Shown here: positions 13,312-20,210 of the stretch, in pieces
Layout of the letters: each line of letters begins with the position of its first letter
How positions within the stretch are numbered: position 1 is the first letter of the stretch
Made by a program: the position numbers and the translations under genes
Notes under the pieces: generated by a model
Database searches by the model: none
Seen by the model: only the letters and a program-made list of their open reading frames with translations
What the model was told of the DNA's origin: nothing
Assembly (NCBI GenBank): GCA_028873795.1
Contig: JAPPNP010000072.1
Location: 1 to 34,040, forward strand
Direction: 5' to 3'
From: Chloroflexota bacterium
GTDB taxonomy: Bacteria; Chloroflexota; UBA11872
DNA length: 34,040 nt

Positions 13312-14367
13312 GTGCGCGTCGAGCTCAACGCCCTCTTTCGCCTATCGCCGCTGACAGGCACCGGCCAGCACCTGGAGCATCTGGTCGCCGCGCTGCGGGC
13401 CGGGTACCCGGACGTCGAAATCATCGAGCGCGTGCCCGGCCGCCGACTGCAGGGCAGGGCCGGAAAAGTGTGGTGGGAGCAGGTGGCGTGGCCCGCGGCG
13501 AGCCGATCCGCGGACGTGCTGCATGCGCCGCACCTCGCGCCGCCGATCGCCGCTCCGCGCGCCATCGTGACCGCGCATGACGCCATCCCGTTCGTGCTGC
13601 CCGAGTACGGCGCCGGCCGCCTGCGGCGGCTGTACAACGGGCTGGTCCGCGTGGGGCTGCGGCGTACGCGTCACCTGATCGCGGTGTCGCACTGGACTCG
13701 GCGCGACCTCACGCGGGTGCTGGGCGTGCCGGCCGAGCGCATCCACGTGGTCCACAACGGCATCGCCGCCAGCCTTACCCCGACGCCCGATGCCGGCGCC
13801 GCGTCGATTCGGGAGCACTACGGCCTTCCGGCCCGCTTTGCGCTGTATCTGGGGGCCCTGGACGCTCGGAAGAACCTGGGCGTGCTGCTTCGAGCCTGGC
13901 CCGAAATCTGGGCGGCGACGGGCGTGGCGCTCGCGGTGGTCGGACGCGCGCCGAGGCCCACGAGCCTGGTCTATGTGGACTGGTTCCGGGGACACGACGA
14001 TGCCCCCTGGCTGCACGTGATTGGCGAGGTGCCGGAGAGGGACAAGGCGGGCCTCTATCGGGCCGCCGCCGTCTTCGTGTTTCCCTCGCGCTACGAGGGG
14101 TTCGGGCTCGACCCGTTGGAGGCCATGGCGTGCGGCGTTCCGGTCGTGGCGTCCGATGCAACGTCGGTACCGGAAGTCGTGGGGGACGCCGCGGTTTTCG
14201 CGGCGCCCGATGACGTCGAAGCCTGGCAAGCGTCGGTGGCGGATGTGCTGAGCGATCCCAACCGCGCCGCCTCGCTGCGCGACGCGGGCATGGCACGGGC
14301 GCGTGCGTTCACGTGGGAACGCGCCGCCGAGGCCACGATGGCGGTCTACGCCAAGGCGGCGGGATGA
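13312..14367 (+). CDS. GT4-family glycosyltransferase (second of three)
   Basis: A 351-residue GT-B glycosyltransferase. It begins VRVELNALFRLSPLTGTGQH, contains AIVTAHDAIPF and LIAVSHWTRRDL in the acceptor domain, LYLGALDARKNLGVLL at the start of the donor domain, and YEGFGLDPLEAMACGVPVV with the E-x7-E pair. It resembles the first transferase of the cluster in plan (HD-P/F and VS-x-x-T/W-R-x-DL landmarks), so the two may descend from one duplication. GTG 13312 begins 15 bases after the PlsY-like stop. The last codons overlap the next gene as ATGA. Confidence 0.88.
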   Translation: MRVELNALFRLSPLTGTGQHLEHLVAALRAGYPDVEIIERVPGRRLQGRAGKVWWEQVAWPAASRSADVLHAPHLAPPIAAPRAIVTAHDAIPFVLPEYGAGRLRRLYNGLVRVGLRRTRHLIAVSHWTRRDLTRVLGVPAERIHVVHNGIAASLTPTPDAGAASIREHYGLPARFALYLGALDARKNLGVLLRAWPEIWAATGVALAVVGRAPRPTSLVYVDWFRGHDDAPWLHVIGEVPERDKAGLYRAAAVFVFPSRYEGFGLDPLEAMACGVPVVASDATSVPEVVGDAAVFAAPDDVEAWQASVADVLSDPNRAASLRDAGMARARAFTWERAAEATMAVYAKAAG

Positions 14368-15461
14368 AAGTCCTGATGGCGTCGAAAGCGCTGGTGATGG
14401 GCGCGTATCACGCCAAGCTCGTAGCCCTCGGCGCCCAGCCGGGCATCGAACTGCTCGCCCTGGCGCCCGAATCTTGGATCGAAGGCGGCCGGCGGCAACG
14501 CGCCGAACCGGTGTCGCCCGAGCACTACGGTCTGCGCTACCAGCCCCTGCGGCTGAACGGACGCTTTCACCTGCACTGGTGGCCCGGGCTCGCAGGCGCG
14601 GTCCGTGAGTTTCAGCCCGATCTCGTGCATATCGACGAAGAGCCATACAACGCGGCGACCGTGCATGCGTGCCGAATTGCCCGCAGCCGAGGCGCGCGCG
14701 TGGTCTTCTTCGCCTGGCAGAACATCCGGCGGCGCTATCCGCCGCCGTTTGCGTGGTTCGAGCGCTACGTGTTCGGTCGCGCCGCGGGCATCGCCGGGAC
14801 GGCGACCGCGGGCGACGTGCTGCGGGCCAAGGGCTTCGCCGGCCCGCTGGCCGTGATTCCCCAATTCGGTGTAGACCCAGAGCGATTTGCACCCGGCGAC
14901 GATGGGGGTGGAAGCACATTTCGCATCGGATTCGCCGGGCGGCTGGTCCACGAAAAGGGCATCGAGCTGCTGGTGGAGGCGGCGCGGCGAATTGACGGCG
15001 ACGTGGAGCTGCTGATCGCGGGCGCCGGGCCGCTCGACGACGCGATTGGCGGGCAGGCGGCCGGCGATGACCGCGTGCGATTGCTGGGCGCGTTGCCCAG
15101 CGCGGAAATGCCAGGGTTCTACCGAGACCTGGACGTGCTCGTGCTGCCGACGCTGGGACGGCGGGGGTGGACCGAGCAATTCGGGCGCGCGGCCATCGAG
15201 GCCATGGCCTGCGGGGTGTCGGTGATCGTCTCGGACGCGGGCGAGCTGCCGGCGGTGGTGGGCCAGGCGGGACGGATAGTTCCGGCCGGTGACGTTGAGG
15301 CGCTTCAGCGGGCGCTGACTGACTTGCGGGTGGATGCAAGCGAGCGCAGCCGGCTTGCCGAAGCGGGACGAGCGCGCGTGCTAGCGGAATTCACCCATGC
15401 ACGGATTGCCGAGACGACGGCGGCGTTCTATCGAGAAGTGATGGACGGCCCCGACCGCTAA
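14364..15461 (+). CDS. GT4-family glycosyltransferase (third of three)
   Basis: A 365-residue GT-B enzyme. Start ATG 14364 overlaps the preceding TGA (ATGA); MKVLMASKALVMGAYHAKL is the expected N-terminal strand-loop-helix. The donor domain shows IGFAGRLVHEKGIELLVEAA and a variant E-x7-E, EQFGRAAIEAMACG. The acceptor domain has DLVHIDEEPYNAAT and FFAWQNIRRRYP, a layout seen in transferases that act on lipid-linked or secondary-metabolite acceptors. Donor and acceptor are unknown. It is the last gene of the plus-strand cluster; its stop overlaps by 4 bases the stop of the convergent oxidoreductase, leaving no room for a terminator. Confidence 0.88.
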   Translation: MKVLMASKALVMGAYHAKLVALGAQPGIELLALAPESWIEGGRRQRAEPVSPEHYGLRYQPLRLNGRFHLHWWPGLAGAVREFQPDLVHIDEEPYNAATVHACRIARSRGARVVFFAWQNIRRRYPPPFAWFERYVFGRAAGIAGTATAGDVLRAKGFAGPLAVIPQFGVDPERFAPGDDGGGSTFRIGFAGRLVHEKGIELLVEAARRIDGDVELLIAGAGPLDDAIGGQAAGDDRVRLLGALPSAEMPGFYRDLDVLVLPTLGRRGWTEQFGRAAIEAMACGVSVIVSDAGELPAVVGQAGRIVPAGDVEALQRALTDLRVDASERSRLAEAGRARVLAEFTHARIAETTAAFYREVMDGPDR

Positions 15462-16732
15462 CCGCCGACGATCTCGCCCTCGACGGGGTCCACGCGAATC
15501 CCCTGCGCTTCGGTCCACTCCACGGCGGCGTCGACTTCGTCGTGCTCACCCTCGACCAGCAGCTGGACCCAGCCGATTCCCCCGTCGATATCCGCGCGGC
15601 GGATGTCGAGCCGCAGGTCGAATCGCCGCGCCAGCTCGTTCACGATCGGAGATTGGATCTTGTCGGCGGGGTAGGTGAGCTGCAGACGCATGCGGGCGGG
15701 CCCGCGCCGGGAAACGGCTCGTCCGCCTCTTCCGTCCCACGGATCATCGACCTCGACCGACCCGCCGGACTCGGCCGCTTCGCGCACCGCGTCCAGCACT
15801 GCGAGCGTGCGGATGGCGTCAAGGCTGGTGACGACCGGCGCCGTGCGCTGACGCACGACCCGGACGAACTCGGCGATCTCGCCGTCGAACATGGCCTGCC
15901 AGGCGTCGCCGAAGTGATGCAGCGTGGCGGGCCGGTCGAAGGTGCGACTGGCGGTGGCGTTCACTTCCACCGTCGCCTCGAATACGTCGCTGCGCAGGCG
16001 ACCGGCGCGACCGACGAGGTCGATCACGTCGGCGTGCGCGGGCGAAGCCTGCGACACCACGAGCGCGGCGGTCACGCCGTCGTCGAAGGTCATCAGGATG
16101 GAGGAGGTTTCGTCGCTCCCGGTGTCGCCGCGATCCACGACGCGCGCGCTCACGCTCACGACGCGGGCTCGGTGCAGCCACAGCACCTGGTCGACGAGGT
16201 GGCTGCCGACGAAGGCAAGCTGTCCGCCTCCGCGCGCAGGCTCGGCCAGCCAGCCTTGGAGCGGTGGACCGCCTTTGAGCGCGACGATGCTCACGATCTC
16301 GCCGGTCAGACCGCGCGCGAGCAGGTCGCGCAGGTGCGTGCGGGCGGCGTGGAACCGCAGACAGTAGCCGGGCATCACGACCACGCCCCGCTCGCGGGCC
16401 GCCGTGGCGACGCTCTCGGCCTCGACGCGGTTGCGAGCGAGGGGCTTCTCAACGAGTACATGAAGTCCGGCGTCGATGCAGGCAAGCGCCGAATCCGCCA
16501 GCGCGTCGTGGGGCACGGCAATCACGGCCGCGTCCGCGACCCCGCTTGCGGCCATGGACTTGGTGTCGTGGAAGGCTTGCACGCCATCGCGCGCGACCTC
16601 GCGAGTCGCGGTCGGATCGGTGTCCACCGCCGCGGTGAGCACCGCGTCGGAGGCATCCTGAATCGACGGCAGCAGCCGGGAGACCATGTGGTCGCCGCAG
16701 CCCACCGCCGCGACGCGCAGGGGATCAGCCAT
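15458..16732 (-). CDS. Gfo/Idh/MocA-family oxidoreductase fused to a C-terminal NIL domain
   Basis: A 424-residue protein in two parts. Residues 1 to about 330 form an NAD(P)-dependent sugar-type oxidoreductase: Rossmann start VAAVGCGDHM, the VEKPLARN loop, and GSHLVDQVLWL in the substrate domain. It ends as such proteins do with VLDAVREAAESGGSVEV. A short arginine-rich linker follows, then residues 348-424 read MRLQLTYPADKIQSP, RRADIDGGIGWVQLLVEG and end VDPVEGEIV. That is a NIL domain, an ACT-like module known from the C-terminus of MetN and from small free-standing proteins, where it binds methionine or related ligands. Met348 (15691-15689) could serve as an internal start. The substrate is unknown; a ligand-sensing tail on this enzyme family is unusual. 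Confidence 0.85.
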   Translation of the reverse strand: MADPLRVAAVGCGDHMVSRLLPSIQDASDAVLTAAVDTDPTATREVARDGVQAFHDTKSMAASGVADAAVIAVPHDALADSALACIDAGLHVLVEKPLARNRVEAESVATAARERGVVVMPGYCLRFHAARTHLRDLLARGLTGEIVSIVALKGGPPLQGWLAEPARGGGQLAFVGSHLVDQVLWLHRARVVSVSARVVDRGDTGSDETSSILMTFDDGVTAALVVSQASPAHADVIDLVGRAGRLRSDVFEATVEVNATASRTFDRPATLHHFGDAWQAMFDGEIAEFVRVVRQRTAPVVTSLDAIRTLAVLDAVREAAESGGSVEVDDPWDGRGGRAVSRRGPARMRLQLTYPADKIQSPIVNELARRFDLRLDIRRADIDGGIGWVQLLVEGEHDEVDAAVEWTEAQGIRVDPVEGEIVGG

Positions 16733-16779: not shown

Positions 16780-17619
16780 TCAGATGTCCCGACGCTGGAA
16801 CGCGCGAACCGCATAGGCGAGCGCCAGCACCAGATACACCGCGGCCACCAGCAGCATCCATCCGGAGGGCGGGTTGAGCGAGCTGAACGGGCCTCCCGTC
16901 ATGCCAGTCGTCGACCCCGATTGCTGGGCCAACTGCGCGCCCGCGAGATCCCAGAGCGCCCGCGTGGGCAGCAGCACGCTCGTGGCGATGCCGATGTCGA
17001 ACGTCACCGGGTTGTCGAGAAAGTTGCCGATCTGCTCGATGACGCCGCCGACCAGCGCGACCGCGTAAAGCGTGAACACGACCACGCCGTTGGCCAGCGT
17101 GCCCAACCGGGTGCTGCCCGCGATGGTGACCGCCAGCAGCACGGCGGCCGCGAACAGCATGGCGAAGGGCGCCGTCCAGGCACGCTCCGCGAATTGCCCC
17201 GTGATGATGGCGACGACGGCAATCATGACCGCCGTCGAAATGCCGATGAAGACCGTGAGGAGCAGCAGATTGCCCAGAAACTTGCCCAGCACGATGGAGC
17301 TCCGGCGCAACGGACGCGCCGCCACGGCGTGCATCGTGCCCTGGTCGATCTCGCCCGAAATGGACCCGACGGCGAGGAAGATGGCGAGCAGCGAGGCCAC
17401 GAAATTGAGGCTCCACATGCCGCCCTGCAGCATGAACCCGACGATTACGCGCTGCATGGACGCCGTGAGGTCGGGATCGGTCGAGATGTCGCGGTAGCCA
17501 AACCACACGCCCACGCCGTAGAGCGCCAGAAAGCCGCCGATCACGACGGCGGCCGCCAGCACCACGCGGCGGCGCACGGCCTCCCGCAGCGTGTGATCGG
17601 CCACGATCCAGAGGCTCAT
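16780..17619 (-). CDS. ABC-2 type transporter permease
   Basis: A 279-residue membrane protein with six hydrophobic segments, including VVLAAAVVIGGFLALYGV, SLNFVASLLAIFLAVGSI, LLLLTVFIGISTAVMIAVV and a last VAAVYLVLALAYAV. After the second segment comes the ABC-2 signature SGEIDQGTMHAVAARPLRRS, the coupling region of NosY/NatB-type permeases. It starts at ATG 17619, sharing ATGA with the ATPase gene, and two subunits with two ATPases would form the transporter. The cargo is not evident; such pairs export ions, lipids or antibiotics, or act in stress responses. Confidence 0.87.
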   Translation of the reverse strand: MSLWIVADHTLREAVRRRVVLAAAVVIGGFLALYGVGVWFGYRDISTDPDLTASMQRVIVGFMLQGGMWSLNFVASLLAIFLAVGSISGEIDQGTMHAVAARPLRRSSIVLGKFLGNLLLLTVFIGISTAVMIAVVAIITGQFAERAWTAPFAMLFAAAVLLAVTIAGSTRLGTLANGVVVFTLYAVALVGGVIEQIGNFLDNPVTFDIGIATSVLLPTRALWDLAGAQLAQQSGSTTGMTGGPFSSLNPPSGWMLLVAAVYLVLALAYAVRAFQRRDI

Positions 17620-18527
17620 TGGTCGGTCGAGTCCGCCAGGCGCACGAACAGGTCTTCCAGGCTGTTGGAGCGGACCTGGACCTCGTAGATGGAAACACCG
17701 GCGCCCGCGAGATTGGCGGTGATGCGCGCGATCTCCTCGTCACTGCCCGCCGTCAGCGTGTAGCGGCCCTCATCCGGCCGCGCCGACAGCGGCTCCAGCC
17801 CGGCGGCGCGCAGCGCGGCGTCGGCGCCGTCGCCAAGCCGCAGTTCAACCTCGCGGGCCGCCAGCAGCTGCCGCAGGTCGCCCGCGGCGACGACCTGGCC
17901 ACGGTTGATGATGGCGACCTGGTCGCACACCTGCTCGATTTCGGACAGCAGGTGCGAGTTCAGAAATACGGTGGTGCCGCCCGCGCGCAGCGCGCGAATG
18001 ATGTCCCGCACGTCGCGCCGGCCGATGGGGTCGAGCGCCGACGTCGGCTCGTCCAGCACAACCAGCGGCGGTTCGGCCAGCAGCGCTTGCGCCAGCCCAA
18101 TGCGTTGCAGCATGCCCTTGGAGAACGTGGCCAGGCGGTCGCGTCGACGCTGCGCCAGGCCAACGAGCTCGAGCATTTCGGGCACCCGGCGGCTGCGCGT
18201 GTCCCGGTCCAGACCGGCCAGTCGACCGTGAAAGTCGAGGAACTCCGACGCGTGCATCCATTCGTGAAAGCGAAACGTCTCGGGGAGAAAGCCAATCCGC
18301 CGCCGCGCCGCGAGGCTGCCCGCCGGATGACCCAGCACGGTTACGTCTCCCGCGGTGGCTTGCACCAGGCCGAGAATGATCTTCACCACGGTGCTCTTGC
18401 CGGCGCCGTTCGGTCCGAGGAATCCAAAGACTTCGCCCCGAGGCACGCTCAGATCGACGCCGCGTACGGCGTGCGTATCGCCGAACGACTTGTGCAAGCC
18501 GGTGGCATGGATGGCGGCTTGGTCCAT
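17616..18527 (-). CDS. ABC transporter ATP-binding protein
   Basis: A 303-residue ATPase for the permease encoded next. Walker A GPNGAGKST is at 38-46, the Q-loop region at LPETFRF, the signature FSKGMLQR from 135 (the family's SGG-type motif with Lys at the second position, common in ABC-2 exporters), Walker B LVVLDEP at 155-161, and NSHLLSEIEQVCDQVAII with the switch histidine. After about residue 220 a C-terminal domain (ELRLGDGADAALRAAGLEP) of the kind found in NatA/BcrA-type exporters follows. ATG 18527 starts 2 bases after the upstream stop. Confidence 0.92.
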   Translation of the reverse strand: MDQAAIHATGLHKSFGDTHAVRGVDLSVPRGEVFGFLGPNGAGKSTVVKIILGLVQATAGDVTVLGHPAGSLAARRRIGFLPETFRFHEWMHASEFLDFHGRLAGLDRDTRSRRVPEMLELVGLAQRRRDRLATFSKGMLQRIGLAQALLAEPPLVVLDEPTSALDPIGRRDVRDIIRALRAGGTTVFLNSHLLSEIEQVCDQVAIINRGQVVAAGDLRQLLAAREVELRLGDGADAALRAAGLEPLSARPDEGRYTLTAGSDEEIARITANLAGAGVSIYEVQVRSNSLEDLFVRLADSTDQ

Positions 18528-18529
18528 GC

Positions 18530-19363
18530 CTACGCTCCGGGCTCCAAACCCGCGAGGCGCAAGAGAGCCTTGGGGCTACCCGGCCCCATGAGCACCGCGT
18601 AGGAGTCATCGGCCCGCCAATGGACGAGGGCGCGCCCGTCGGGAAGTTGCAGGGTTTGCGGCTGGCCGTCGTCTTCGAGCGGCCTGAGCCCGAGGATGTC
18701 GCGATACAGAGCGATCTCGCGCAAGACGATTTGACGCGCGAGCACCGGCGGCAGGAACTCGCGCACGAGGGCCTGGCTGATCAGCTCGAGATCCACCTCG
18801 GGCGGCGCCGAAACCCGCGGTGCGGCGAACTGCACCAGCACCAGGTCGTCGCTGCTTGGCGCCGTGCTTGTCCAGGTCGTGACGAGTATTTCGGGACCCT
18901 GAATGGTTACCGCGCGCGTGCGCAGCCGTTCGGGCAGCGGAACGCGCACCTGCGACCCTGCAAGAAAGCGCTGCAGCTGCTCGAAATCGACGTCCACGCG
19001 CCAGGACCCACCCTGCTGCACCGTCCGCTCGGCCGCTGCGTCGAAACCGGCCGGAGCGTCCAGCGTTATCGGTTGGAATTGCAGTTCGGGCAGCGGTTCG
19101 GTCGCGCCGAGGTCCAGGTAGATCGGCGCCTCTACCTCCGTGATTACGAAGGTGTCCGGCGGCAGGTCGGTCGTGGCCGCGGGCGTCGCCGCAGCCGCGG
19201 TGCCCTCGACGATTGGTTCGATGGCCATTGGCTGCTCGCGCAGCCCGTTGAGCACCTCGTGGACAGCAAGCCGGACCGGCTCGACGGTCACGAGCAGCGC
19301 CACGGCCGCGGCCGTGACTACCAGCCCCGCCCACAGCCTGCGGGCCCGCAGAACCTTGCCCAA
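18530..19363 (-). CDS. Membrane-anchored extracytoplasmic protein of unknown function in the ABC operon
   Basis: A 277-residue protein with a basic N-terminus (MGKVLRARRLW) and one membrane helix at about 10-27, followed by a low-complexity Ala/Thr/Pro stretch near residues 54-67, so the bulk should be outside the membrane. The remainder contains two regions rich in strands, QLRF/VDVDFEQLQRFL and a C-terminal ADDSYAVLMGPGS segment. The latter recalls DUF4367/LolA-like domains that follow anti-sigma factors, but no family is assigned. There is no lipobox Cys and no catalytic motif. The gene lies 4 bases after the metallophosphoesterase and 2 before the ATPase, so it is probably an accessory or sensor part of the transporter. 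Confidence 0.75.
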   Translation of the reverse strand: MGKVLRARRLWAGLVVTAAAVALLVTVEPVRLAVHEVLNGLREQPMAIEPIVEGTAAAATPAATTDLPPDTFVITEVEAPIYLDLGATEPLPELQFQPITLDAPAGFDAAAERTVQQGGSWRVDVDFEQLQRFLAGSQVRVPLPERLRTRAVTIQGPEILVTTWTSTAPSSDDLVLVQFAAPRVSAPPEVDLELISQALVREFLPPVLARQIVLREIALYRDILGLRPLEDDGQPQTLQLPDGRALVHWRADDSYAVLMGPGSPKALLRLAGLEPGA

Positions 19364-19367
19364 GCTG

Positions 19368-20108
19368 CTAGGCGGCCGGATCTCGGCCCGTTAGCAGCGA
19401 ATTGCGAAACGGCTCGGATAAGGGCACGCCTCGGGCCAGGGTCTCTCGATGCGCCGCGCGCTGGTCGTAGGGCACACGCCGGATGGCGGCGGACCAGCGC
19501 CCGGACCCGTCGTCCAGCACCGCATAGGTGGCTTGCCCGGGCTGACCGTCATACGTGCGGCCAACCGAACCGCAGTTGACGAGGAGCAACTGCCCCACGT
19601 GCCGCACGAAGGCGCGGTGGGTGTGGCCGCAGACGAGCACCTGGGCCTCCACGGTGGCGAGCCGGGCGACCAACTGCTCGTTTGACGAGTCGGGAAGGAA
19701 GCCGGCCTCGTCATTGCCGGGTGAGGCGTGAACCACAAGCATGGGCCCGGCGGCCGACGACACTCGCACGACGGTGCGCATCGAGGCCATGCGCTCGATC
19801 AGCCGTTCGCCAAGCCGCGCCCGCGCCCAGGCGAGATTGCGCTCCAAGTGATCCGCCGCCGCGGGTGACGTCTGGCGCATGGCCTCCACGGCCCGCCGCG
19901 GGTTCGCGAGGTAGCGGTCCGTGTTCCCCTGGACCAGGGGCCAGCCAAGGTCCAGCAGGCGCTGCCAGCACTCGAGCGCATGCGCGCCGAAGAGCGCCAC
20001 GTCACCGCCGAAAATCACCTGGTCGGGCGCCTGGGTCTTGAGGTCGGCCAGTACGGCGAACAGGGCGCCGAGATTTCCGTGAATGTCGGTGACGACGGCC
20101 ACGCGCAT
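19368..20108 (-). CDS. Calcineurin-like metallophosphoesterase (YfcE/MJ0936 type)
   Basis: A 246-residue dinuclear-metal phosphoesterase of the small bacterial/archaeal type that cleaves phosphodiesters or phosphomonoesters. Metal-ligand motifs in order: DIHGN (8-12), GGDV (34-37), GNTDRY (61-66), VVHASPG and GHTHRAF. The late VNCGSVGRTYDGQP is typical of the YfcE group. ATG 20108 is preferred because MRVAVVTDIHGN is the family N-terminus; the frame is open to 20192 but would add 28 unrelated residues. It is the first gene of a four-gene minus-strand operon with the membrane-anchored unknown and the ABC pair, an unusual partner for a transporter. The true substrate is unknown. Confidence 0.88.
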   Translation of the reverse strand: MRVAVVTDIHGNLGALFAVLADLKTQAPDQVIFGGDVALFGAHALECWQRLLDLGWPLVQGNTDRYLANPRRAVEAMRQTSPAAADHLERNLAWARARLGERLIERMASMRTVVRVSSAAGPMLVVHASPGNDEAGFLPDSSNEQLVARLATVEAQVLVCGHTHRAFVRHVGQLLLVNCGSVGRTYDGQPGQATYAVLDDGSGRWSAAIRRVPYDQRAAHRETLARGVPLSEPFRNSLLTGRDPAA

Positions 20109-20210
20109 GGACCAAGGGTAGTGCATCGGAGTGTGGGGGGCGCCGAGTGTCTTTCCTGCCCCTTGCGTTCCTCGTGGCGTTGTTTGTGACACGTCTGGAA
20201 CCTCACCATT

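Follow-up and report, generated by a model that had tools for sequence, protein, structure and literature searches.

A lineage-specific fusion of a Gfo/Idh/MocA oxidoreductase with a C-terminal NIL domain in one family of Chloroflexota

What is a NIL domain doing at the end of a Gfo/Idh/MocA dehydrogenase, and is the joining real? The question is raised by a single ATG-started open reading frame of 424 amino acids (15458-16732, minus strand) in a stretch of Chloroflexota DNA that we refer to as the window (34,040 nucleotides, analysed at its full length; all positions are those of the window unless a locus or contig is named). The fold classes of both parts of the protein are already familiar, and no description of the combined Gfo/Idh/MocA-NIL architecture was found in the literature searched, where a NIL domain comes up in three papers, none of which concerns a Gfo/Idh/MocA enzyme. 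An earlier note on this DNA held that NIL domains otherwise occur on MetN-type ATPases and as small separate proteins, which agrees with what we find, and ferredoxin-NIL proteins can be added to these two settings.

Five closely spaced minus-strand genes form a row that ends with this gene; the four before it encode, in order, a metallophosphoesterase, a protein without a Pfam match, an ABC ATPase and a permease. The 3' end of the Gfo-NIL gene overlaps a convergent glycosyltransferase gene (14355-15461) by 4 bases (15458-15461). Amino-acid metabolism is not indicated by these neighbors. Four Pfam models match the protein, all of them above cut-off: GFO_IDH_MocA at residues 5-123 (E 1e-18), GFO_IDH_MocA_C3 at 133-247 (7e-18), GFO_IDH_MocA_C at 141-328 (2e-8), and NIL (PF09383) at 349-414 (E 3e-11; 43.3 bits, with the cut-off at 24 bits; profile positions 2-71 of 73). 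The four matches within one open reading frame bear out the earlier claim that a complete Gfo/Idh/MocA enzyme is followed in frame by a complete NIL domain, and the figures given with that claim (77 residues counted from Met348, with its codon at 15691) are correct. Residue 345 is a better choice for the domain boundary, since it is the position at which stand-alone NIL proteins have their start Met in the alignment. The gene, its parts and its row are as follows.

15458..16732, minus strand: Gfo/Idh/MocA-NIL fusion gene, 424 aa (from the open reading frame, Pfam and the family comparison)
16364..16720, minus strand: Rossmann NAD(P)-binding domain, residues 5-123, with the EKP lysine K96; GxGxxG is GCGDHM in the window's genus
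15746..16363, minus strand: Gfo C-terminal catalytic domain, residues 124-329, with the motif GGGQLAFVGSH, in which Phe174 stands for the usual Asp and His178 is kept
15701..15745, minus strand: inter-domain linker, residues 330-344, of low conservation, with pLDDT <50 at 335-343
15461..15700, minus strand: NIL domain, residues 345-424, corresponding to an entire stand-alone NIL protein minus its start Met
15689..15691, minus strand: codon of Met348, earlier proposed as an internal start, not conserved beyond the genus
15605..15607, minus strand: Asp376, which aligns with Asn295 of the MetN methionine site (alignment; PMC12357092)
16780..17619, minus strand: ABC-2 permease, directly upstream of Gfo-NIL with a gap of 47 bp
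17616..18527, minus strand: ABC ATPase, upstream in the same gene row
18530..19363, minus strand: protein without a Pfam match, with an N-terminal hydrophobic segment, in the same gene row
19368..20111, minus strand: calcineurin-like metallophosphoesterase, first gene of the row

The fusion is real, old, lineage-specific and under strong selection. In a search of 101 genomes with the NIL model and the whole fusion protein as queries, it turned up in every one of the 19 genomes sampled from the window's family (6 from the window's genus, 13 from another), and the frame is full-length and uninterrupted in 18 of these, the copy in genome G017 being cut by a contig end. Members of the window's genus share 92-93% identity with the window protein and those of the other genus 44-51%, and the 18 full-length members all match the same four Pfam models (PF01408, PF22725 and PF02894 among them). 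Both domains are under purifying selection. The window's genus gives pN/pS values of 0.13 (Gfo part), 0.31 (linker) and 0.04 (NIL), and the identities between the genera are 46-47% for the Gfo domains, 18% for the linker and 66% for NIL. A frameshift or stop between the two domains, the case that the earlier note had set against the fusion, was sought, and the frame proved to be open across the junction in every full-length member. Since these members range from 44 to 93% identity, a sequencing or assembly error is excluded. The window's genome assembly does consist of 89 contigs, which leaves some room for a frameshift, a missed stop or a mis-assembly that joins two genes, but the same open frame occurs in 18 separately assembled full-length copies and the purifying selection spans both domains, so the chance of an artefact is negligible.

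The domain-architecture search that had been suggested for this locus finds the same fusion in the window's family only, both among 400 Chloroflexota genomes and among the matches listed in a much wider pattern scan. The 400 genomes were drawn evenly from the phylum; NIL is present in 126 of them, and the Gfo-NIL fusion was not seen in any other lineage of this set. Outside the family, the long NIL frames examined fall into two kinds, MetN (about 330-430 aa) and small NIL genes whose upstream sequence is open. The frame in G311 is of the first kind and not a new fusion, and those in G244, G290, G118 and G170 are of the second kind and likewise not fusions. The wider scan, which covered 84,980 species genomes and rests on two short peptide patterns from the fusion, gave matches beyond the Gfo part only in members of the window's family, among the matches listed.

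The origin of the fusion can be approached through the sister family of the same order (five genomes), in which NIL is a stand-alone gene of approximately 80 aa (43-49% identical). In G020 and G023 this gene comes directly after an ABC ATPase and an ABC-2 permease related to those of the window, and in G021 and G022 it directly follows a pair of large membrane proteins. The same pair (36-44% identical) is found directly before Gfo-NIL in G016, a member of the window's family, and further upstream of Gfo-NIL in most other sampled members of the genus of G016. Because the sister-family NIL follows the same upstream genes, NIL stands at its ancestral place, with the Gfo gene as the newcomer in front of it. 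The earlier note's other case against the fusion, relatives with two separate genes and a stop codon at this point, is borne out in part: NIL is a gene of its own at the equivalent position in the sister family, where it has no neighboring Gfo gene, and a stop codon at the junction occurs in none of the window's own family.

A tree of NIL sequences (FastTree) places the fusions in one clade (support 0.999), which forms a joint clade with the sister-family proteins (0.917), and this joint clade sits among the small, threonine-synthase-linked NILs, apart from the ferredoxin-NIL and MetN types. The simplest reading of the sequences is a single fusion origin at the base of the family. Synteny, alignment and tree show that in the family ancestor a Gfo/Idh/MocA gene entered between a membrane-protein or ABC-permease gene and the small NIL gene and merged in frame with the latter. 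The tandem large membrane proteins (approximately 570 aa each) accompany the NIL locus in both families, and the two are mutually unrelated by profile comparison. The pair is found at these loci.

L066, 12694-16087: tandem membrane-protein pair
L072, 10295-13727: tandem membrane-protein pair
L075, 9774-13176: tandem membrane-protein pair
L076, 5855-9236: tandem membrane-protein pair

The alignment of the free NIL start Met at residue 345, with the residues that follow it (A-R-x-R) mostly kept in the fusions, indicates that the whole NIL protein minus its start codon was captured. An internal start at Met348 had been proposed, by which the gene would yield two products, the full protein and a free NIL. 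Codon 348 is indeed ATG in six of the six genomes of the window's genus, but among 12 genomes of the other genus ten have ATT, one has CTG and one GTC; the ancestral start, three residues further upstream, has been lost, and no obvious ribosome-binding site precedes Met348 in the window. The proposal is not supported, as the internal start is not a conserved feature, and we consider a second product highly improbable.

The model of the fusion protein (mean pLDDT 86) has a complete Gfo fold and a folded NIL, which are separated by a stretch with pLDDT below 50 (residues 335-343). The best PDB matches of the Gfo part are 1,5-anhydrofructose reductase and related sugar and inositol enzymes, with a fold match to 2glx (TMt 0.89). 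The fusion is like the known Gfo/Idh/MocA dehydrogenases (KijD10 3-ketoreductase, 1,5-anhydrofructose reductase and inositol dehydrogenases) in that both domains are complete, the EKP lysine is present and the fold is full-length, but it differs from them by its C-terminal NIL tail and by a Phe in place of the usual active-site Asp. The Asp and His of GGGxxxDxGxH are typical of the Gfo/Idh/MocA group, although not universal. All 18 members have Lys96 (of EKP) and His178, while the position four residues before His178, where the Asp is usual, is Phe174 in all of them. The substitution is not tied to the fusion, as the same change from Asp to Phe occurs in three unfused relatives of the same class (L078, L079 and L080). 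Judged from its sequence and model, the enzyme likely carries out a redox reaction on a sugar or polyol. The reaction, and even the activity, are uncertain because of Phe174 and because the third Gly of the nucleotide motif is replaced by Met in the window's genus.

The fused and unfused proteins with this change can be seen as a Gfo/Idh/MocA subgroup in which Phe replaces the active-site Asp and the Lys and His are kept (GGGQLAFVGSH in the window, 16198-16231). The three unfused relatives lie either next to a gene for a xylose-isomerase-like TIM barrel or next to sialidase-like and transport genes. In GxGxxG, the third Gly is Met throughout the window's genus (GCGDHM, 16685-16702) and Gly in the sister genus.

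The NIL part, modelled by itself (pLDDT 89), has a ferredoxin-like beta-alpha-beta-beta-alpha-beta fold, and its best match is the C2 domain of MetN (3tui, 5e-7); ACT domains, including that of phosphoglycerate dehydrogenase, match more weakly. Compared with the C2/NIL domain of E. coli MetNI, the fold is the same (3tui, E 5e-7; 3dhw, TM 0.79), sequence similarity is detectable (3dhx, E 1e-4), and the domain is again C-terminal on a larger enzyme domain, although the carrier is an ABC ATPase in MetN and a dehydrogenase in the fusion. The two also differ at the methionine site. Replacement of Asn295 by Ala in E. coli MetN raises the Ki for L-Met 28-fold (PMC12357092). This position is Asp376 in all six genomes of the window's genus and Asp in G016, and is Asn in the other 11 of the 12 genomes of the sister genus; in addition, the motif NIL of MetN is DIR in the window and DIR or NVR in the fusions. 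From these residues, methionine is a possible ligand of the fused NIL but not a safe one. The fused NIL is the sole NIL copy in each of the 19 family genomes, and since there is only one NIL domain in the window's genome, that genome has no NIL-type MetN.

NIL is also joined to a redox protein in the ferredoxin-NIL subunit of L-aspartate semialdehyde sulfurtransferase (homocysteine synthesis), and a NIL domain has been described as methionine-binding and enzyme-regulating (PMC12068725). In the ferredoxin-NIL subunit, however, NIL is N-terminal and its partner is a ferredoxin, whereas in the fusion NIL is C-terminal on a dehydrogenase.

The small NILs that lie in threonine synthase rows of Chloroflexota belong to the same subfamily as the fused NIL, both by the tree and by a shared end (..DPVEGD..), but they are free proteins of 76-81 aa, lie beside sulfur-carrier genes and lack a dehydrogenase. 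Threonine synthase, a MoaD/ThiS-like sulfur carrier, ThiF or MnmA is found within approximately 1.5 kb at 16 of the 18 small-NIL loci that were examined outside the window's family and the sister family, and the gene order is frequently threonine synthase-NIL-MoaD. Because these free relatives adjoin threonine synthase and the sulfur carrier, the ligand of the fused NIL probably belongs to the threonine/homocysteine/methionine branch. The row itself (threonine synthase, small NIL, MoaD/ThiS-like carrier and, in some cases, ThiF or MnmA) recurs in many Chloroflexota families, with examples as listed here.

L086, 8420-10336: threonine synthase-NIL-MoaD row
L088, 125-1980: threonine synthase-NIL-MoaD row
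L089, 501-3608: threonine synthase-NIL-MoaD row
L090, 5698-7557: threonine synthase-NIL-MoaD row

We consider this row a candidate for a sulfur-carrier route to homocysteine, or for a regulator of such a route; no paper on it was found in the literature searched, including that on threonine synthase with thiocarboxylate. According to a 2018 study, at least one pathway of homocysteine synthesis is still to be found (PMC5764234). The occurrence of NIL genes in homocysteine pathways elsewhere, namely the NIL-linked HcyBio/ferredoxin-NIL route (PMC5764234, PMC12068725), and in the threonine synthase cluster, might suggest that the fusion is itself an enzyme of methionine/threonine biosynthesis, for example a substitute for homoserine dehydrogenase with feedback control through NIL. 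We regard this as very improbable, since 15 of the 16 family genomes searched have a normal homoserine dehydrogenase, that of the window among them (PF00742, G000:C70), and the Gfo domain matches sugar/polyol enzymes and not homoserine dehydrogenase. Furthermore, HcyBio (PF01837), the partner of ferredoxin-NIL, is absent from 19 of 19 family genomes and was found in three control genomes.

The reading that we prefer, while conceding that it could about as easily be wrong, is that of a lineage-specific fusion in which the activity or assembly of a sugar/polyol-type dehydrogenase is altered by a ligand-binding, ACT-like NIL tail. The protein would be a working NAD(P)-dependent oxidoreductase, the tail would fold as an ACT-like beta-alpha-beta-beta-alpha-beta domain and pair with another NIL domain, and the binding of a small amino-acid-type ligand to NIL would change dehydrogenase activity or assembly. 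D-3-phosphoglycerate dehydrogenase, with its ACT tail and serine, may serve as the model for this effect; it is an analogy in the manner of working, between NAD-dependent dehydrogenases that bear a C-terminal ferredoxin-like amino-acid sensor, and the fold search with the NIL model also gave its ACT domain as a weaker match. This enzyme differs in that its catalytic domain is unrelated, its sensor is ACT and not NIL, and its ligand, serine, is known. The tail is most likely an ACT-like regulatory or docking domain.

The main alternative is that the fused NIL keeps the separate job of its free ancestor and is merely tethered to an enzyme that it does not regulate. That job would consist in binding a partner or acting within a pathway, perhaps together with the threonine synthase/sulfur-carrier system. 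Several features fit this alternative, which has a substantial chance even though we lean against it. NIL is better conserved than any other part of the protein (identity between genera 66%, Gfo domains 46-47%; pN/pS 0.04), the genome has no second NIL, and the model shows a partly flexible linker, which favors loose tethering as much as tight allostery. Moreover, threonine synthase (C75:1734-2966) and a MoaD-like gene (C75:3028-3288) remain adjacent in the window's genome with no NIL between them. Against a mere tether, families f3 and f4 have no NIL but retain threonine synthase and MoaD-like genes, and the fusion has persisted throughout the window's family and was never split again, which suggests that the joining of Gfo and NIL is itself beneficial.

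Regulation through the NIL tail can be extended to a broader proposal, possible but rather doubtful, in which a sulfur- or aspartate-family amino acid controls the sugar/polyol dehydrogenase by way of the captured NIL, and the free NIL is an undescribed regulator, or a part, of a threonine synthase/sulfur-carrier (MoaD-ThiF) pathway in Chloroflexota. If this were true, one protein would couple carbon flow to amino-acid supply. The locus also provides a synteny-supported example of a free sensor-like protein turned into a built-in enzyme domain, and it points to a NIL subfamily whose genes accompany those for threonine synthase and a sulfur carrier. This subfamily, for which we found no stated function, bears on homocysteine synthesis.

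Two other features of the window concern its annotation. A 23S rRNA gene occupies positions 1-2824 on the minus strand and is cut at the contig end, and the open reading frames listed there are spurious. ARAGORN places a tRNA-Ala(GGC) at 17788-17863 on the plus strand, antisense within the conserved ABC ATPase gene, and this call is probably a false positive.
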